DNA from: Amycolatopsis cihanbeyliensis
Lineage (GTDB): Bacteria; Actinomycetota; Actinomycetes; Mycobacteriales; Pseudonocardiaceae
Length of the DNA: 64,000 nucleotides
Assembly: GCF_006715045.1 (NCBI RefSeq)
Contig: NZ_VFML01000001.1
Span: forward strand, 496,001-560,000
Reading direction: 5' to 3'
How positions within the stretch are numbered: the stretch's first letter is position 1; every line of letters begins with the position of its first letter. A model generated the notes under the pieces. It ran no database searches and had not been told where the DNA came from. It was given only the letters and a program-made list of their open reading frames with translations. The translations under genes were made by a program, and so were the position numbers. This document shows, one piece after another, positions 16,527 through 28,224 of the stretch.

Positions 16527-16775
16527 GTGGAGCCGGAACACGAGGTGATCGTGTCGGTCACCGAGGAGGGCATGGCCCGCCTCGACCGGGTGGTGGCGGA
16601 CCTGCGTGCGGCGGGGCTGGTCGTGCGTGAGGTGCTGGGGCCCCTCGGCATGGTGACCGGCTCGGTCCGGGCCGGGACCGCGGCGACGTTACCGGACGTG
16701 CCCGGCGTGCTGGACGTCGAGTACGCCCGGTCCTACCAGCTCCCGCCGGAGAACGGGCCGCGCGAGCGCAGGTAG
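16527..16775 (+). CDS. Small I9/propeptide-like protein paired with the S8 protease
   Basis: An 82-residue protein with alternating beta-alpha pattern: EHEVIVSVTEEG, a helix MARLDRVVADLRAAGL, VVREVLGPLGMVTGSV, then DVPGVLDVEYARSYQLP. This matches the ferredoxin-like fold of subtilase propeptides (inhibitor I9), where the conserved VPGVxxVE element contacts the protease. I chose GTG 16527 for its GGGAGG Shine-Dalgarno. Its position directly behind the protease suggests an intramolecular-chaperone or inhibitor role in trans. The 3' end overlaps the convergent VWA gene by 43 bp. Confidence 0.7.
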   Translation: MEPEHEVIVSVTEEGMARLDRVVADLRAAGLVVREVLGPLGMVTGSVRAGTAATLPDVPGVLDVEYARSYQLPPENGPRERR

Positions 16776-18697
16776 TCACCGACCACCGCGGCTCCGAGGC
16801 CGTCCAGGTCCGGCGCCACCACCCTGCCGCCGGCGCGGCGGGCCAGCAGGTCGACGAACTCGGTCAGCCGCGGGTCGTCGCCGAGCCGGAACACGGTCAT
16901 CGCGGCGCCGAGCTTTCCCAAACGGTCCACTTCGGACAAAGTCGTGAACAGGGTGCGCGGCGTCGGCGGGTAGTCGAACACCGCGGTACCGTCGGGTTCC
17001 AGATGCGCGGTGGGCTCTCCGTCGGTGACCAGCAGCACGACCGGCTGGGCGTCCGGATGCCTGCGCAGGTGCCGCCCCGCCAGCAACAGTGCGTGCTGCG
17101 CGTTCGTGCCCTGCTCCCACGTGCCCTCCATGCCGACCAGCTCGGCCAACTCCACCGTCGCCGCGTACCTGCCGAAGGTGATCAGCTGCAGCGCGTCGTC
17201 GCGGAACCGGGTGGCGATGAGCTGTTGCAGGGCCAGCGCGGTCCGCTTCATCGGCAGCCACCTGCCCTCCTGCACCATGGACCACGAGGTGTCCACGCAC
17301 AGCGCGACCGCGGCGCGGGCCCGATGTTCGGTCTCGGCCACCTCCACGTCCGCGACATCCAGCCGCACCGCTGCGCCCGAACCGCCGGAAGCCGTGCGCA
17401 GCACCGCGTTGCGCACGGTGCGCGGAACGTCCCAGGGCTGGGTGTCTCCGAACCGCCAGGGCCTGCTGGACCCGCTGGGCTCGCCTGCCGCGCCCGCCGA
17501 GGCGGTGTCCCGATCCCCGGTGCGCCCGCGCAGGGACCGGATCACGTCCTTCAGCGCGGTTTCCGCCAGCCGGCGCAGCGCCTTGGGGGACAGCCGCAGC
17601 GAGCCGTCCGGTGTCCGCTCGAACATGCCCTGCGCGCGCAGCTCCCGTTCCAGCTGGGCGAGCCGTTCGGCGTCCACACCGGACTCCTCGCCGAGCTGCC
17701 TGCGCAACGCCTCGGTGTCGATGTCCTCCAGCCTGGCACCCGGGTAGGACTGGGAAAGCTGCTCGGCGAGCGCGTCCAGTTCGGCGAGGTCGACCATGGC
17801 CCGCGCGCCCTCGCCGAGACCGAGCGGGTCGTCCCCGCGGAACCGGGCCGCCGAGGCCCAGTCCTCGCCAGGGCGCAGCCCGCGCAACTGTTCGTCCAAC
17901 CTGGACAGTTGCTCCGCCAACCGGGGGTCGCCGAAGGCCTGCTGGGACAGCTCGGCCAGCTCCGCGCGTTGCTCGGGAGTCATCGAGTTCAGCATCCGCT
18001 GCGCCGCGGCCGCGCGGGCCGCGAGCGCGTCGATCAGCTCGTCCACAGTCCGCGGGTTCTCCGGGAAGAAATCGCCGTGCCGTCGCATGAACTCGGCGAA
18101 GCGTTCCTCGATATCGGCGAATCCCCGCGCGTGCGCGGAGAGCAGGGCGTTCAGGTCGGCCAGCATCCGGTCGACCCGCTCGACATCCTGCCCGGTGGTC
18201 TCGGCCAGCGCGTTCTTCATGCCCTCGAACCGGGAGTCCAGCAGTTCCCTGCCGAGCATCTGCCGGATACGCCGGTAGGCCTCCGCCGCCTCCGGCGAGG
18301 TCCACTCGTAGTCGTCGAGCTCGGCCACCGCCGCGGCGGTTCCGGTGGGCAGCAGGTCCAGCCGCGCCTCGCGGAACCGGGCGTCCTCGCCGGGATCGCC
18401 TGCCAGCGCCGCGCGCTCGTCCCGCACCGCCTCGTCCAGCAGGCGCCGCACCTCCAGCAGGGTGCCGTCCAGCCGGTGCCTGCGCTGGATCTCCGCCCGG
18501 CGCTGCCACAGCCGCCGGGTCAGCTCGTCCAGGCCCGGGGTGTTCGCGGTGCCCCTGCGTAGCAGTTCCTCCAGCGCGGAGCGTGGCGAGGCTCCCGCCA
18601 TCACCTCCTGGCCTACCTCATCCAGCGCGTCCCGCAGGTCGGCGGGCGGCGCCAGCGGGTCCGGCCCCTCGTGCCACGGCCCGTAGGAGTAGCTCAT
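16733..18697 (-). CDS. VWA-domain protein of a chelatase-like AAA+/VWA pair
   Basis: A 654-residue cytoplasmic protein. The long N-terminal half is acidic and helical (residues 1-420, many Glu/Leu/Arg heptad-like stretches). From about residue 445 there is a von Willebrand A domain with the MIDAS motif DTSWSMVQEG and the later TNAQHALLLAG and VTDGEPTAH. Such proteins work with the upstream AAA+ ATPase like BchD/BchI or RavA/ViaA; M. tuberculosis Rv0959/Rv0958 is, as I recall, the same pairing. The target metal or protein is unknown. ATG 18697 overlaps the stop of the last mini-ORF of the repeat tract. Confidence 0.88.
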   Translation of the reverse strand: MSYSYGPWHEGPDPLAPPADLRDALDEVGQEVMAGASPRSALEELLRRGTANTPGLDELTRRLWQRRAEIQRRHRLDGTLLEVRRLLDEAVRDERAALAGDPGEDARFREARLDLLPTGTAAAVAELDDYEWTSPEAAEAYRRIRQMLGRELLDSRFEGMKNALAETTGQDVERVDRMLADLNALLSAHARGFADIEERFAEFMRRHGDFFPENPRTVDELIDALAARAAAAQRMLNSMTPEQRAELAELSQQAFGDPRLAEQLSRLDEQLRGLRPGEDWASAARFRGDDPLGLGEGARAMVDLAELDALAEQLSQSYPGARLEDIDTEALRRQLGEESGVDAERLAQLERELRAQGMFERTPDGSLRLSPKALRRLAETALKDVIRSLRGRTGDRDTASAGAAGEPSGSSRPWRFGDTQPWDVPRTVRNAVLRTASGGSGAAVRLDVADVEVAETEHRARAAVALCVDTSWSMVQEGRWLPMKRTALALQQLIATRFRDDALQLITFGRYAATVELAELVGMEGTWEQGTNAQHALLLAGRHLRRHPDAQPVVLLVTDGEPTAHLEPDGTAVFDYPPTPRTLFTTLSEVDRLGKLGAAMTVFRLGDDPRLTEFVDLLARRAGGRVVAPDLDGLGAAVVGDYLRSRGPFSGGSW

Positions 18698-19017
18698 GGC
18701 TCGACTCCTCCCCGCCGCGCTCCTCGGCCCGCGGGCCGGACCTGCGATGCTCGCGGGTCGTCGCCTTCGCCGCTCATGGCTCGACTCCTCGCCGCTGCGC
18801 TCCTCGGCCCGCGGGCCGGACCTGCGATGCTCGCGGGTCGTCGCCTTCGCCGCTCATGGCTCGACTCCTCGCCGCTGCGCTCCTCGGCCCGCGGGCCGGA
18901 CCTGCGATGCTCGCGGGTCGTCGCCTTCGCCGCTCATGGCTCGACTCCTCGCCGCTGCGCTCCTCGGCCCGCGGGCCGGACCTGCGATGCTCGCGGGTCG
19001 TCGTCTTCGCGGCTCAT
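18694..19017 (-). CDS. Chain of four 27-codon mini-ORFs linked by ATGA overlaps
   Basis: Because the unit is 80 bp, an ATG in each repeat opens a 27-codon frame whose TGA overlaps the next unit's ATG. The frames are 18934-19017, 18854-18937, 18774-18857 and 18694-18777. The peptides are near-identical, start MS(R/G)E(D/G)DDPRASQV and end in a basic tail with VEP. The first ATG overlaps the AAA+ stop and the last TGA overlaps the VWA start. Each could act as a relay in translational coupling; whether the peptides accumulate is unknown. Confidence 0.4.
18698..19017. repeat. Four exact-length 80-bp tandem repeats between AAA+ and VWA genes
   Basis: Units run 18698-18777, 18778-18857, 18858-18937 and 18938-19017. 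The two central units are identical; the end units differ at a few bases. On the minus strand each unit begins with ATGAGC and ends with GAGGAGTCGAGCC, so every unit supplies a Shine-Dalgarno at the right distance from the next ATG. Each also contains the perfect palindrome GGCCCGCGGGCC. The tract replaces what would otherwise be a direct ATGA overlap between the two genes. Confidence 0.95.
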
Positions 19018-20432
19018 GGTCCGTACACCGTGGTGTCGTCGTCGGCGTCCTTGGCCAGCCTGCGGGCGAGGTAGAGCGACTCCAGCGCCAGCTCCACGGC
19101 GGCGGCGAGCCGGCCGGCCGGCTCGTCCGAGCCGACGCCCGCCCGCTGGGCCACCTCGTGCAGCACCGGCAGTTCGGGCAACGCCGCCAGCACCTCCTTG
19201 CCGGGCACCCGGTCCCCGGTGGCGACCAGGTGGCCATCGGCGACGGCATGACTGAGCGGCTCGAGGTCCAACCCGGCGAAGCGCTCCCGCGCGGTCTCCG
19301 CCACCGCCCTGCGCAGCAGGTGCACCAGGTGCTCGGTCTCCCGGCCCTCCTCCCCTGGCTCGAACTCGAGCTTGCCGCGCAGCACCACCGGAACGGCGTC
19401 CAGGTCGACCGGCCGGGCCACCGCAGGCTCCTCCCCGGTCAGCGCGGAGCGACGCAGGGCGGCGGCCGCGACGGTCTCGGCGGCGGCCACCGCGAACCGG
19501 GCCGACACGCCCGAGCGCTGGTCGATCACGTTCGATCCGCGCAGGTTGCGCACGAACCGGGCCAGCACCTCCAGCAACGGGTCGCCGACCTCGGCGACCA
19601 GCTCGGCCTCCTGCCGGACCACACCGACCTCGGCGGCGACGTCCAGCGGGTAGTGCGTGCGGATCTCCGCGCCGAACCGGTCCTTGAGCGGGGTGATGAT
19701 CCGCCCGCGGTTGGTGTAGTCCTCGGGGTTGGCGGTGGCGACCAGCACCACGTCCAGTGGCAGCCGCAAGGTGTAGCCGCGGACCTGGATGTCGCGCTCC
19801 TCCATCACGTTCAGCAACGCGACCTGGATACGCTCGGCGAGGTCGGGCAGCTCGTTGATCGCCACGACTCCCCGATGAGCCCTCGGCACGAGTCCGAAGT
19901 GGATCGTCTCGGGGTCACCCAGGCTGCGCCCCTCCGCCACCTTCACCGGGTCGACGTCACCGATCAGGTCGCCGACCGAGGTGTCCGGGGTGGCCAGCTT
20001 CTCGGTGTAGCGCGCGCTCCGGTGCAGCCAGCTCACCGGCAGCTCATCCCCGAGTTCGGCGACCCTGCGCAGGGAAGCGGGCGTGATCGGGCGCAGCGGG
20101 TGCTCGGCGAGCTCGGAGCCCTCGATCACCGGCGTCCACTCGTCCAGCAGCCCGGCAAGGGTACGCAGCAGGCGGGTCTTGCCCTGCCCACGCTCGCCCA
20201 GCAGTACCACGTCGTGCGCGGCGAGCAGTGCCCGCTCGAACTGCGGCAGCACCGTGCCGGAGAACCCGAGGATGCCTGGCCACGGATCGCGGCCGGCGCG
20301 CAGCGCGCTCAGCAGGTTGTCGTGGATCTCGGTCTTGACACCGCGCGGCAGGTAGCCCTCGGCGCGCAGTTGTCCCGCCGTGCGGGGCAGATGTGCGGGT
20401 GCGGGGACGTTCACCCCGCCGACGCTACTCAT
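19014..20432 (-). CDS. AAA+ ATPase, magnesium-chelatase-like
   Basis: A 472-residue AAA+ protein. Walker A is GERGQGKTRLL (around residue 85), Walker B is GVVAINELPDL, and sensor 1 is in VVLVATANPEDYTNRGRIITPLKDRFGAEI, as in ChlI/BchI and MoxR relatives. It has an unusually Glu-rich C-terminal helical region. I chose ATG 20432 (MSSVGGVNVPAP); the frame extends further but without family resemblance. It should form a hexamer that works with the VWA protein encoded downstream. The two genes are separated by the 80-bp repeat tract. It is divergent from the gene at 20499. Confidence 0.9.
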   Translation of the reverse strand: MSSVGGVNVPAPAHLPRTAGQLRAEGYLPRGVKTEIHDNLLSALRAGRDPWPGILGFSGTVLPQFERALLAAHDVVLLGERGQGKTRLLRTLAGLLDEWTPVIEGSELAEHPLRPITPASLRRVAELGDELPVSWLHRSARYTEKLATPDTSVGDLIGDVDPVKVAEGRSLGDPETIHFGLVPRAHRGVVAINELPDLAERIQVALLNVMEERDIQVRGYTLRLPLDVVLVATANPEDYTNRGRIITPLKDRFGAEIRTHYPLDVAAEVGVVRQEAELVAEVGDPLLEVLARFVRNLRGSNVIDQRSGVSARFAVAAAETVAAAALRRSALTGEEPAVARPVDLDAVPVVLRGKLEFEPGEEGRETEHLVHLLRRAVAETARERFAGLDLEPLSHAVADGHLVATGDRVPGKEVLAALPELPVLHEVAQRAGVGSDEPAGRLAAAVELALESLYLARRLAKDADDDTTVYGP

Positions 20433-20498
20433 CGCGGCCGCGCGCGTCGACGTGGAGCTGCTCCAGAGGCGAGTGCGTCCCGGGTGGGAGAACCCGTA

Positions 20499-21308
20499 GT
20501 GTGGGTCGCTGTGTGCTGTCCCAGTGCGACTCTCGCGGTGTGGTGCGCGGCATGGCTGCACGGCGCCGCGGCATCCGACAACGCTCTCGACGCGCTCCAC
20601 GCGTGGGGCGAGGCGCATGAGGTCGTCGCGGCCGATCCCGACACCGCCGAGGCGTTCGGCATCCCGCTGACCGGCTCCGTACCGGCGCCGCCCGCCGCGC
20701 TGCTCACCGCGCTGCGCAAGCGGAACGCTCAGGACGCGCGACTCGTCCTCCCGGTCCCCGGCGACGTGCGCGGCCTCGGTGGTGGCGGCCCGCTGGCCGA
20801 GGCCGCCCTGCGCGCCGGCGAGGTCACCACCTTCCCCGGCATCGGCTATGGCGTGGTGCCCCAACCGATCGCCGAGGGACTGATGCGGTGGATCGTGTAC
20901 CCGCTGGCCTCGCCGGTGCCTGCCGAGTCCGTCAGCCTTGGCGAGGCCGAGAACGCGCTCACCGACGCCGTCCGGACCAGCGCGGGAGCCCTGCAGGAGA
21001 TGGAGGTGGCCAGGGAACGGCCGGGCGTACGGGACGAGCTGTCCGCGCGCCTGCGGTCCGCGCCCCGACCGGACTGGCCGCGCGGGACCCCGGGCCGGGC
21101 ACTACGGGTGCTGCAACGCGCCGACGAGGTGGGCGCGATTCTCGCGCTGGCCCTGGCCGACGAGCCCGGCGGCGCCTTCTCCGCCTCCGCGGCGGGCCGG
21201 CGCGCCGAGGCCCTGCGCCCACTGTCCGACGCCGTCCGCACCGCCCGCGTCGCCGCCGTCTCCGAGGCCGTTCGGGTACTGACCGACTACGCGGACCGCC
21301 ACCCGTAG
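20499..21308 (+). CDS. Conserved-type actinobacterial protein of unknown function
   Basis: A 269-residue soluble protein, rich in Ala and Arg, with no motif I can name. It starts WVAVCCPSATLAVWCAAWLHG, followed by DALDALHAWGEAHEV, LVLPVPGDVRGL and a helical C-terminal region (LRPLSDAVRTARVAAVSEAVRVL). Start is GTG 20499 with GGGAG upstream. GTG 20511 is an alternative, since TAGTGT at 20497-20502 could drive a leaderless transcript from it. It is divergent from the AAA+ gene with 66 bp between starts, so it may share a regulator with that operon. Confidence 0.7.
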   Translation: MWVAVCCPSATLAVWCAAWLHGAAASDNALDALHAWGEAHEVVAADPDTAEAFGIPLTGSVPAPPAALLTALRKRNAQDARLVLPVPGDVRGLGGGGPLAEAALRAGEVTTFPGIGYGVVPQPIAEGLMRWIVYPLASPVPAESVSLGEAENALTDAVRTSAGALQEMEVARERPGVRDELSARLRSAPRPDWPRGTPGRALRVLQRADEVGAILALALADEPGGAFSASAAGRRAEALRPLSDAVRTARVAAVSEAVRVLTDYADRHP

Positions 21309-24761: not shown

Positions 24762-24808
24762 CTGTCCTCCAGTTCGAGAAGTTCGCGAAGTGATGTGGTC
24801 GGGGCCCT

Positions 24809-25557
<749 letters not shown>

Positions 25558-26153: not shown

Positions 26154-27137
26154 TCAGGGCAGCCGCTGGCCGATGAACAGGGAACTGCCGGCCGCACCGA
26201 TCAGCACGATCGTGCCCAGCACCACCCACGGTCTGCTGGCGTCGGCCTCCTTGATCTCGTAGCCGATCTGCTCACCGAGGCTGGCGTACACCTGTTTCAG
26301 TTCGGCGGCCGTGGCGGCCTTGTAGAAGTCCCCGCCGGAGAGCCGGGCGATCTCCCGCATGGAGGAGTCGTCGACCGGGACCGGTTGCGGGTCGCCCTCG
26401 ATGGTCACCATGCCGTGCGAGGTACCGAACGAGATCGTGGAGACCGGCACATCCGCCTGTTTCGCCCGCTGCGCGGCGGTGTACGCACCGCGCGGGTCGT
26501 ACGGGTCGTCGGTGGGCACGGTCTGCTTGCCGTCGGTCATCAGCACGATCCGCGCCGGCGGTGGTCCCTGTGCCCCACCGACCACCGCGGAGAACCCCTC
26601 GATGGACTGCAGGGCCGCGAAGATTCCCTCACCGGTCGCGGTGGACTGCGCCAGCTTCAGATTGTCGATGGACTTGCGCACGCCGGCCCGCTCGGTCGTG
26701 GGTGCCACCAGCACGGTGGCCGTGCCGGCGAAGGAGATCAGGCCGAGGTTGACCCCCGGGGTGAGCCCCTCGGCGAAGGTCTTGGCCGCGTCCTGCGCCG
26801 CGTCCAGCCTGGTCGGCTGGACATCGGTGGCCTCCATGGACAGCGAAACGTCGATCACCAGCATCACCGTGGCGCGGTTGCGCGGCACCTTCTGCTCCGC
26901 GGTCGGGCCGGCGAGCGCGAAGGTGAGCAGGATCAGCGACACGATCAGCAAGGCTGCGGGCACATGCCTGCTCCAACCCTGGCTGCGCGGCGCGACCCGC
27001 TCCAACAGCTCGAGATTGGTGAACCGCATCGTGCGCTTGCGGCGGGCCCGCTGCGCGAGCACGTAGCCCACCACCACGGCCGCCACGAGCAGCAGGAGCA
27101 GGAACCACCACGGGGTACTGAAACCGGTCAAGCTCAC
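26154..27137 (-). CDS. Membrane-anchored VWA-domain protein (MoxR-operon type)
   Basis: A 327-residue BatA-like protein. Two N-terminal transmembrane helices (residues 10-27 and about 60-80) flank a short basic segment. The VWA domain has the MIDAS DVSLSMEATD at about residue 95 and TDGKQTVPTDD. A last helix lies near the C-terminus (VVLGTIVLIGAAGSSLFIG). It corresponds to Rv1481 in the M. tuberculosis moxR1 block, as I recall. GTG 27137 overlaps the stop of the 47-codon mini-ORF. It should work with the MoxR ATPase and DUF58 protein encoded upstream, in cell envelope maintenance by inference. Confidence 0.9.
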   Translation of the reverse strand: MSLTGFSTPWWFLLLLLVAAVVVGYVLAQRARRKRTMRFTNLELLERVAPRSQGWSRHVPAALLIVSLILLTFALAGPTAEQKVPRNRATVMLVIDVSLSMEATDVQPTRLDAAQDAAKTFAEGLTPGVNLGLISFAGTATVLVAPTTERAGVRKSIDNLKLAQSTATGEGIFAALQSIEGFSAVVGGAQGPPPARIVLMTDGKQTVPTDDPYDPRGAYTAAQRAKQADVPVSTISFGTSHGMVTIEGDPQPVPVDDSSMREIARLSGGDFYKAATAAELKQVYASLGEQIGYEIKEADASRPWVVLGTIVLIGAAGSSLFIGQRLP

Positions 27138-27277
27138 GACTGCTCCTTCACGGCCACGTGCGCGCTGTGGTCACCGTGACTGCCGCGACCCGGCACCGGG
27201 CGACTCACGACTGCTCCTCCGCGGCCCCGCGCGCTGTGGTCACCGTGACTACCCCGGCTCGCCACCGGGCAACTCAC
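27134..27277 (-). CDS. 47-codon mini-cistron made of two tandem copies, between DUF58 and VWA genes
   Basis: GTG 27277 overlaps the DUF58 stop (GTGA), and its TGA overlaps the VWA GTG start. The peptide is two copies of a 23-24 residue unit; each copy contains RGSHGDHSA and a PV near its start. In DNA the units are 69 and 71 bp (27209-27277 and 27138-27208). Each ends with a Shine-Dalgarno and GTGAG (GGAGCAGTCGTGAG). It reproduces the logic of the 80-bp repeats at 18.7 kb: duplication of an intercistronic junction with its ribosome site. Confidence 0.5.
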   Translation of the reverse strand: MSCPVASRGSHGDHSARGRGGAVVSRPVPGRGSHGDHSAHVAVKEQS

Positions 27278-28224
27278 GACGTCCCCCCGGACCAACCACG
27301 CTTGCGGGCCACGACGAACCGGACGGTGTCGGCGATCCAGTCGGAGTCGGTGCGCAGCACCAGATGCCCCGCACCCGCCTGGCGCAGCGCGCCGGCGACC
27401 TGCCGCCGGTGGGCGTGCGCGGCGGCCGCGAACTCCTTGCGCAGCAACGCCGAGGCATGGACCTCGCGCTGCCGGCCGGTCTCCGGGTCGGCCAGCACCA
27501 CGGTGCCGACCTCGGGGAGGTCGATGTCCCGCGGGTCCAGCACCTCGATGCACACCAGATCGTGCCGCGCCGACAACGCGCGCAGCGGCCGCTGCCACTC
27601 CAGGCCGCCGAGGAAGTCGGAGATCACCACCGCCAGGCCCCGGCGTCGCGGCGGTCGCCGCAGTTGCTCGATCGCGGCCGCGAGATCACCGCGGTCACCC
27701 TCGCCGGCCCGTGGCATCTCGGCCACCCTGCGGACCAGGCTTCTGGCATGCGCGAGGCCGCCGCGGGCGGGAAACCGACGGGTCTCGCCGCCGGTGGAGA
27801 CGAGTGCGCCGAGCCGGTTCCCGCCACCCCCGGTCAGGTAGGCGATCGCCGCGATGGCGCAGACCACGAGGTCACGCTTCTCGCACATGGCCGTGCCGAA
27901 GTCCAGGCTGGCGGAGAGGTCGGCGACCACCCAGGTCTCCAGTTCCCGGTCGGCCACCGTCTCCCTGATGTGCGGGACCGTGGTGCGCGCGGTGACCGTC
28001 CAATCCATCCTGCGCACGTCGTCCCCCGGCTGGTACGGCCGTGCCTCCCCCGGCTCCGAGCCCGGTCCCGGCACCAGCCCGAGGTGGTTACCCTGCAGCA
28101 GCCCGTCCAGCCTGCGGCGCACCTCCAGCTCCAGGGTGCGCAGCCCCGCCTCGAGCCGCTCGCCGCGCAGCACCGGTGGCGCCCAGTCCGGCCGGCTGTC
28201 CGTCGTCCGCTTGCTGGCACTCAT
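27274..28224 (-). CDS. DUF58 domain protein of the MoxR operon
   Basis: A 316-residue soluble protein with the DUF58 signature near residues 58-80 (GEARPYQPGDDVRRMDWTVTARTTVPHIRE) and a VWA-like fold after it (WVVADLSASLDFGTAMCEKRDLVV, AVVISDFLGGLEW). DUF58 proteins are partners of MoxR ATPases and VWA proteins. It starts 9 bp after the MoxR stop and ends inside the start of the mini-cistron. It corresponds to Rv1480 in M. tuberculosis order, from memory. No membrane segment is seen, unlike some longer homologues. Confidence 0.9.
   Translation of the reverse strand: MSASKRTTDSRPDWAPPVLRGERLEAGLRTLELEVRRRLDGLLQGNHLGLVPGPGSEPGEARPYQPGDDVRRMDWTVTARTTVPHIRETVADRELETWVVADLSASLDFGTAMCEKRDLVVCAIAAIAYLTGGGGNRLGALVSTGGETRRFPARGGLAHARSLVRRVAEMPRAGEGDRGDLAAAIEQLRRPPRRRGLAVVISDFLGGLEWQRPLRALSARHDLVCIEVLDPRDIDLPEVGTVVLADPETGRQREVHASALLRKEFAAAAHAHRRQVAGALRQAGAGHLVLRTDSDWIADTVRFVVARKRGWSGGTS

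Follow-up and report, generated by a model that had tools for sequence, protein, structure and literature searches.

The minus strand of a 64,000-nucleotide stretch of Amycolatopsis cihanbeyliensis DNA (the window, meaning the whole stretch analysed) carries four tandem 80-bp units between the gene of an AAA+ ATPase and that of a protein with a VWA domain. Very probably, this tract is a local amplification of a short mobile repeat that is non-autonomous and transparent to translation, with four copies arranged head to tail. The units belong to a family that is dispersed and gene-oriented, sits mostly at the overlap between an upstream TGA and the next start codon (ATGA or GTGA), and has a length in the phase of a ribosome relay. 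The finding is wider than the AAA+/VWA pair and more ordinary in purpose, as the element appears to be a transparent repeat resembling the mycobacterial interspersed repetitive units (MIRU), not a purpose-built dial.

The upstream gene (19014..20864, minus strand, as are all features of the tract) encodes a Mg-chelatase/MoxR-like AAA+ ATPase (Pfam PF01078, PF07728 and PF07726); its start at 20864 is the call of the program that lists open reading frames (ORFs), and the true start probably lies further downstream. The downstream gene (16733..18697, from the same ORF list) encodes a VWA-domain protein (PF13519) with the N-terminus MSYSYGPWHEGP. Between them, Tandem Repeats Finder (TRF) detected a repeat at 18692-19019 with a period of 80, 4.1 copies, 98% matches and zero indels. 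Each of the four units matches the element model and holds a mini-ORF of 27 residues plus a stop codon, at 18934..19017 (unit 1, MSREDDDPRASQVRPAGRGAQRRGVEP followed by the stop), 18854..18937 (unit 2), 18774..18857 (unit 3) and 18694..18777 (unit 4), with a start-to-start distance of exactly 80. The TGA of the AAA+ gene (19016-19014) lies within the ATG of unit 1, unit 2 is bounded by an ATGA overlap at both ends, and the TGA of unit 4 lies inside the ATG of the VWA gene, making five overlaps of 4 nucleotides (nt) in all from AAA+ to VWA. The Shine-Dalgarno hexamer GAGGAG, read from the sequence, stands at 18705..18710 in unit 4, ahead of the VWA start, and at 18785-18790, 18865-18870 and 18945-18950 ahead of the internal ATGs, always with a spacing of 7 nt to the next ATG; the first mini-ATG has no GAGGAG in front. 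All of the details that were checked agree with the first-pass annotation. A 49-nt core pattern with at most 3 mismatches occurs four times in the window, each time in the tract, and never in 100 dinucleotide shuffles; by TRF and by the shuffles, the repeat lies well outside what chance would give. An Rfam scan at gathering thresholds gave no match in 18000-21000.

Units 2 and 3 are identical and encode the same peptide, so the exact number of units could be wrong, as it would be if assembly had collapsed or expanded a tandem repeat. Such an artefact is very unlikely: units 1 and 4 each differ from units 2 and 3 by 2 nt at fixed positions, the genome is assembled in 2 contigs, and like arrays are found at ten loci of the host genome and in other genomes.

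Searching the 7.44-Mb host assembly (2 contigs) at the DNA level led to 20 places. A 31-unit profile found 35 full units at these 20 loci with scores of 67-82 bits, the next four matches reaching at most 29.6 bits, and a second profile recovered the identical 35 units. Ten loci have a single unit and ten have arrays of 2 to 4 units, with a step of 80 bp at five loci, 81 at four and 77 at one. Downstream on the same strand, 54-96 nt past the last core, 19 of the 20 loci have the start of an ORF longer than 80 codons, and the twentieth locus (L018) has a downstream ORF of 75 codons. Likewise, an upstream ORF of at least 198 codons ends near the element at 19 of the 20 loci, that of L015 being doubtful with 76 codons. 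The genes flanking the host units have no function in common (20 flank proteins checked); those named by Pfam include a histidine kinase and a response regulator (L020), ABC ATPases and permeases (L004 and L005), two ArsA-type ATPases (L007), and chorismate-binding and AMP-binding enzymes (L013). Over the host and other genomes together, the element has the strand of its flanking genes, with an upstream stop and a downstream start found in 135 of 159 loci; at the remaining 24, one of the two flanks was not detected near the element.

Comparison of the AAA+/VWA junction among relatives revealed an empty site. In the genus genome G013, whose AAA+ protein is 91% identical, the junction reads GGGCCATGACCTACTCCTACGGG with a bare ATGA, and the window has the same junction plus 320 bp. 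The G013 sequence GGGCC-ATGA-CCTACTCCTACGGG corresponds to GGACC-ATGAGC-(units)-ATGAGC-TACTCCTACGGG in the window, and both gene ends are intact. Thirty such loci, the host's included, were read from 60 genus genomes; the tract is missing at all 29 others (G013 included), 13 of which by reading have a direct ATGA or GTGA overlap. The 320 bp are therefore regarded as an insertion, since the close relative has a bare ATGA and no tract is present at any of the 28 further genus loci. Among 80 named AAA+/VWA loci, 45 have a direct overlap, 17 a start at most 12 nt from the stop, 14 a gap below 70 nt and three a longer gap, and one was unreadable; the only junction match among them is weak (Actinophytocola xinjiangensis, L071, 26 bits, E 0.012). 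Other inserts at AAA+/VWA junctions were seen at 4956-5090 of L071, the weak match just mentioned, and at 5971-6055 of L118 (Kibdelosporangium persicum), which is unmatched by the element model; the junction may be a recurrent insertion target. In Amycolatopsis arida, a weak element match (L051, 3867-3944, 23.1 bits, E 0.043) that ends in GGAGGAGCACGGCCATGA lies close to the upstream end of the AAA+ gene.

A second site, L016, has a clean CGATGAGCGC overlap in genome G011. In G013 this overlap is preceded by AGGAGCCGGGAA, which is much like the right end of the element and could be what remains of one that was mostly lost there. The host and G013 share three sites carrying 2 versus 1, 3 plus a remnant versus 1, and 1 versus 1 copies; copy number can drift, as two of the three sites differ between these two species.

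The first-pass annotation had suggested that the tract may tune the AAA+/VWA ratio, with each relay losing or adding ribosomes, the number of units setting the ratio of VWA to AAA+, and slippage possibly altering that number as at a contingency locus. The tandem, nearly identical units and the differences of 2 versus 1 and 3 versus 1 at shared sites would be in keeping with such a tuner, and PMC2734929 reports that the length of a tandem repeat upstream of fpg1 in M. tuberculosis is associated with the mRNA level of that gene. We nevertheless consider a tuner improbable. The tract is one of 20 insertions, the unit lies next to unrelated genes at the 19 other loci, 10 of the 20 have a single unit only, and the relatives read run the AAA+/VWA pair without any tract. 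Moreover, ribosome loss need not accumulate along the chain, because each unit has a strong Shine-Dalgarno sequence of its own.

Analysis of the reading phase supports a transparent mobile repeat instead. The phase set comprised 161 loci, of which 20 were from the host, 7 from G013, 18 from the family and 116 from the order; the last are 21 of 30 fetched from the order search plus 15 and 80 further places, excluding tandem neighbours, contig edges, duplicates of used loci and the tail of the list. Two loci (L151 and L286) lack the core and 24 more lack a flank, and the other 135 reduce to 75 sites once loci homologous in either flank are joined. Of the 53 independent single-unit sites that have an overlap at each end, 42 show a spacing of 3n+2 between the left and the right start, 6 one of 3n and 5 one of 3n+1 (binomial p 9e-12 for 42 of 53 versus one third). 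The relay-phase lengths are 71, 74, 77, 80, 83, 86 and 89 bp; therefore, phase and not length is held. At 41 of the 42 relay-phase sites, the mini-ORF stays open and ends precisely at the right overlap. Five of the six 3n sites read on into the downstream gene, and two of the five 3n+1 sites (L013 and L172) contain a second, shortened unit and relay in two steps; thus 7 of these 11 sites are accounted for by in-frame fusion or a two-step relay. By a strict walk that begins at the upstream stop, 60 of the 75 sites are connected (49 through a relay and 11 through a fusion), and in the host genome 17 of the 19 loci with both flanks connect. In silico deletion of 1 nt reduced the connected sites from 60 to 10 of 75, and insertion of 1 nt turned 56 sites into fusions and left 3 relays. 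Relay is preferred and fusion is tolerated, because a 1-nt insertion makes mostly fusions. Of the relay reading in the first-pass annotation, the chain of overlaps and its phase survive, the latter over many sites, whereas an origin or purpose specific to AAA+/VWA is not supported. The accompanying remark that a plain duplication need not keep the overlaps was right, as the phase is carried by the inserted unit itself.

The same frame rule explains why the 81-bp arrays of the host stay in frame without a stop and restart between units. At host loci L003, L009, L010 and L020, the reading frame of the array or unit continues into that of the downstream gene, whose product may have been lengthened at its N-terminus by residues encoded in the repeat; gene callers risk choosing a wrong start there.

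Single units in relay phase, one or more per site, are present at 44 of the 75 sites. The DNA core is the same at these sites but its reading frame is not: the three frames are used at 31, 8 and 5 of them, giving unrelated peptides (RASQ, SIA and EHR types), and therefore continuous translation is kept and not the peptide. With four nearly identical 27-residue ORFs, all of them open, the tract could be taken for a duplicated functional small protein. This reading is extremely unlikely and largely refuted, given that other genera read the core in the other two frames into unrelated peptides and that the 81-bp host arrays have no separate mini-ORFs bounded by stop and restart.

Each unit of the tract contains a perfect 14-nt palindrome. 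The corresponding predicted hairpin of unit 4, GGTCCG-GCCCG-CGGGCC (18726..18742, minus strand), has copies at 18806-18822, 18886-18902 and 18966-18982. Over 48 family units, 27 of them from the host and G013 and the rows hence not independent, the six pairs (columns 40-45 with 51-56 of A2) are formed in 93.1% of cells. Five of the six pairs have changed on both sides, with a covariation score of 0.287 compared to at most 0.074 when slid. A stem of at least 5 bp is present at 18 of 20 host loci, 6 of 7 G013 loci and 17 of 17 other family loci, as well as at 6 of 8 fusA sites and 2 of 2 fusA sites of genomes labelled g53. The conserved pairing would also suit a unit kept as an RNA or DNA structure, acting in processing, in pausing or as a recombination site, with coupling as a by-product. 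We regard this as quite unlikely, since the stem is absent or interrupted in most of the order (present at 20 of 100 other order loci and 0 of 5 dispersed g53 copies), where the phase rule still holds, and the folding energy of three window units is no better than that of shuffles. As an order-wide feature, the hairpin was rejected on the same count of order loci, and it was likewise dropped as a candidate mobility signal. In label f16 (L190, L192, L193, L194, L196 and L198), two neighbouring G/A oppositions commonly break the stem, as in GGGAGC-GCCA-GCGACC.

The bases after the left and right TGA resemble each other. At the 44 sites, their identity at positions 1-4 is 0.59, 0.59, 0.50 and 0.48 versus 0.40, 0.45, 0.28 and 0.30 in mismatched pairs, and at positions 5-6 it is 0.45 and 0.48 versus 0.39 and 0.43; the identity summed over 8 positions was reached by 0 of 5000 permutations. 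We infer that DTGA and a few further bases were duplicated and have since decayed; such a duplication would leave both genes whole. Upon insertion, the element would copy the overlapping codons and a few bases, probably as a short target duplication. The upstream gene would keep its stop, the mini-ORF would take the former start codon, and the element would rebuild the downstream start behind its own GAGGAG. Such an insertion would be nearly harmless and would persist because translation is uninterrupted, and later slippage or unequal crossing-over could multiply the unit into tandem arrays like the present one of four. A ribosome finishing AAA+ would restart in the first mini-ORF and may pass along through the four units; in parallel, each GAGGAG may recruit ribosomes directly. 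Most likely, the VWA gene stays coupled and acquires a strong Shine-Dalgarno sequence, none being present in the 13 nt before the G013 start, and the relay avoids polarity at AAA+/VWA, so that a dedicated rheostat need not be assumed.

Several points weigh against this picture of a transparent mobile repeat. All statements on translation rest on sequence. The flanks were picked automatically as the longest ORF, wrongly at least at L018, and 15 of the 75 sites are not connected by the strict walk, some because the script chose a start inside the element. The frame read by the relay is open at 43 of 44 sites, only modestly above what composition gives (mean 37.7, sd 2.1 and maximum 42 in 200 shuffles), and the other two frames are open at 32 and 38 of the 44. 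The evidence for the target duplication consists of statistics and of two sites at which junctions were compared. Neither a transposase nor a movement event was identified, transposase co-occurrence across the 397 order genomes not having been searched, and a search of plasmid and phage collections with one unit gave no match. In addition, 18400-19300 contains no terminal inverted repeat of at least 12 nt beyond the palindrome and its flank, and the two ends of one unit share no inverted 6-mer.

The family is patchily spread, being rare in the genus and widespread in the order. In the genus sample (60 genomes), strong matches are confined to the host and G013, and G050 has one weak match. Model R2, built from 39 units, matched 97 of 397 genomes and 26 of 85 genera of the order sample at E 0.001 or better; a narrower model matched 23 of 297 genomes and 12 of 46 genera of the family sample, a few of the weakest matches resembling coding sequence. 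In a class-wide sample, 6 of 296 genomes matched, all within the order of the host. The model searches scored 11 to 150 candidates per genome, and copy numbers outside the host are hence lower bounds. Searches of the openly licensed literature showed no description of this repeat family, which is no proof of absence as subscription papers lie mostly outside it, and the sole match to six core or peptide strings in that literature was an unrelated rice paper.

One site recurs in several lineages. The element is located at the stop codon of fusA (elongation factor G, EF-G, recognised by eye from its C-terminus) at L175, L178-L182, L202, L203, L212 and L213, which belong to labels f2, f7, f8 and f16. 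The left end of the unit (GAAGGCGACG...GAGCATCG) resembles the fusA tail, and a partial second copy of the tail lies 3' of the element, which makes capture of the fusA tail by the element a possible hypothesis. Thirty other fusA 3' ends were read from 90 matching genomes: L343 has the element, L319 has a short element-like stretch and 28 are empty. The fusA end as a single ancestral home was rejected on the 28 empty ends, and fusA is one more site in some lineages. As a tentative extension, one that we hold to be doubtful, an ancient order-wide mobile family might target stop/start overlaps by copying them, so that insertions are born in phase, with MIRU as a hairpin-less offshoot and the left end derived from the 3' end of fusA. 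If true, the element would parasitise gene junctions and evolve under a tie to the ribosome, and in its arrays at least four reinitiations could follow one another naturally.

Few repeats in microbiology have been typed as well as MIRU. An order-wide MIRU-like family with empty sites and a length rule in steps of three would provide many natural insertions for probing movement and the role of the mini-ORFs in harmless hosts, and natural reinitiation chains of one to four steps would give a measure of how far a ribosome can be handed on. For annotation, the mini-ORFs and the 81-bp read-through arrays are a warning, as they can yield false small genes and doubtful N-terminal extensions. Two further tandem repeats were seen in the window. 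A 69-bp repeat at 27123-27280 (2.2 copies, 84% matches) is not matched by the element model, and a 12-bp repeat, GGCCCGTTCAGT, at 24803-24844 (3.4 copies) lies between two minus-strand ORFs that by eye resemble short-chain dehydrogenases.

Compared to known systems, the relay resembles translational coupling at ATGA overlaps. PMC6728339 describes termination-reinitiation at such overlaps with reporters in E. coli and H. volcanii, the Shine-Dalgarno sequence being of variable importance. The 4-nt stop/start overlap and the Shine-Dalgarno sequence before the restart codon are common to both; however, ordinary genes are coupled in PMC6728339, whereas here an inserted repeat interposes a chain of mini-ORFs. 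The window element is also short and dispersed, codes for no transposase and, in the family of the window, has an inner hairpin. The same holds for intergenic repeats of the repetitive extragenic palindrome (REP), bacterial interspersed mosaic element (BIME) and miniature inverted-repeat transposable element (MITE) types, which are short, dispersed and without a coded transposase. They differ in that REPs are not known to be tied to the reading frame, and no terminal inverted repeats were seen in the window element.

The closest likeness is to MIRU, which reportedly go back to Supply et al. in 1997. Like them, the window element is dispersed between genes, single or in tandem (35 units at 20 loci), it is oriented with the contiguous ORFs (135 of 159 loci), and the ends of its small ORF overlap the contiguous ORFs, in the window as well as at the 42 of 53 single-unit sites in relay phase. 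According to PMC12548453, MIRU are apparently mobile, insert at start codons with an inner ORF coupled at -4 nt, and likely have minimal impact on genes. PMC4473831 sets MIRU apart by the absence of dyad symmetry, the overlap with contiguous ORFs and the orientation, and five terms on function are unmatched in PMC7481465. The reported lack of dyad symmetry in MIRU differs from the palindrome and covarying hairpin of the window element, although related copies in the order are often without it, and the array step is 77-86 bp in the loci analysed here versus 46-54 bp in the MIRU arrays seen. The plain name MIRU was rejected for the window element, as the hairpin is present and homology is unproven.

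A MIRU core is present in 69 of 148 genomes of label g53, compared to 0 for the reversed control, and its loci are laid out like those of the window element, GGCGACGA marking the left side and GAGCGCAGCGATGAGGAG the right. Model R2 ranks a MIRU unit first in 16 of 18 loci, but at 10-23 bits (best 23.4 bits, E 0.0028, and otherwise 8-18 bits), and the profile score was reached by 3 of 1000 shuffles. In five g53 genomes (G414, G438, G450, G470 and G480), R2 matches were observed and the MIRU core was found in none of them; a mutual exclusion of the R2-type element and the MIRU core in g53 is possible, five genomes being few. The stem-less R2-type copies of g53 stand between the window element and MIRU. 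Altogether, the similarities in sequence are only suggestive of kinship, and the window element appears to work like MIRU and may be their kin.

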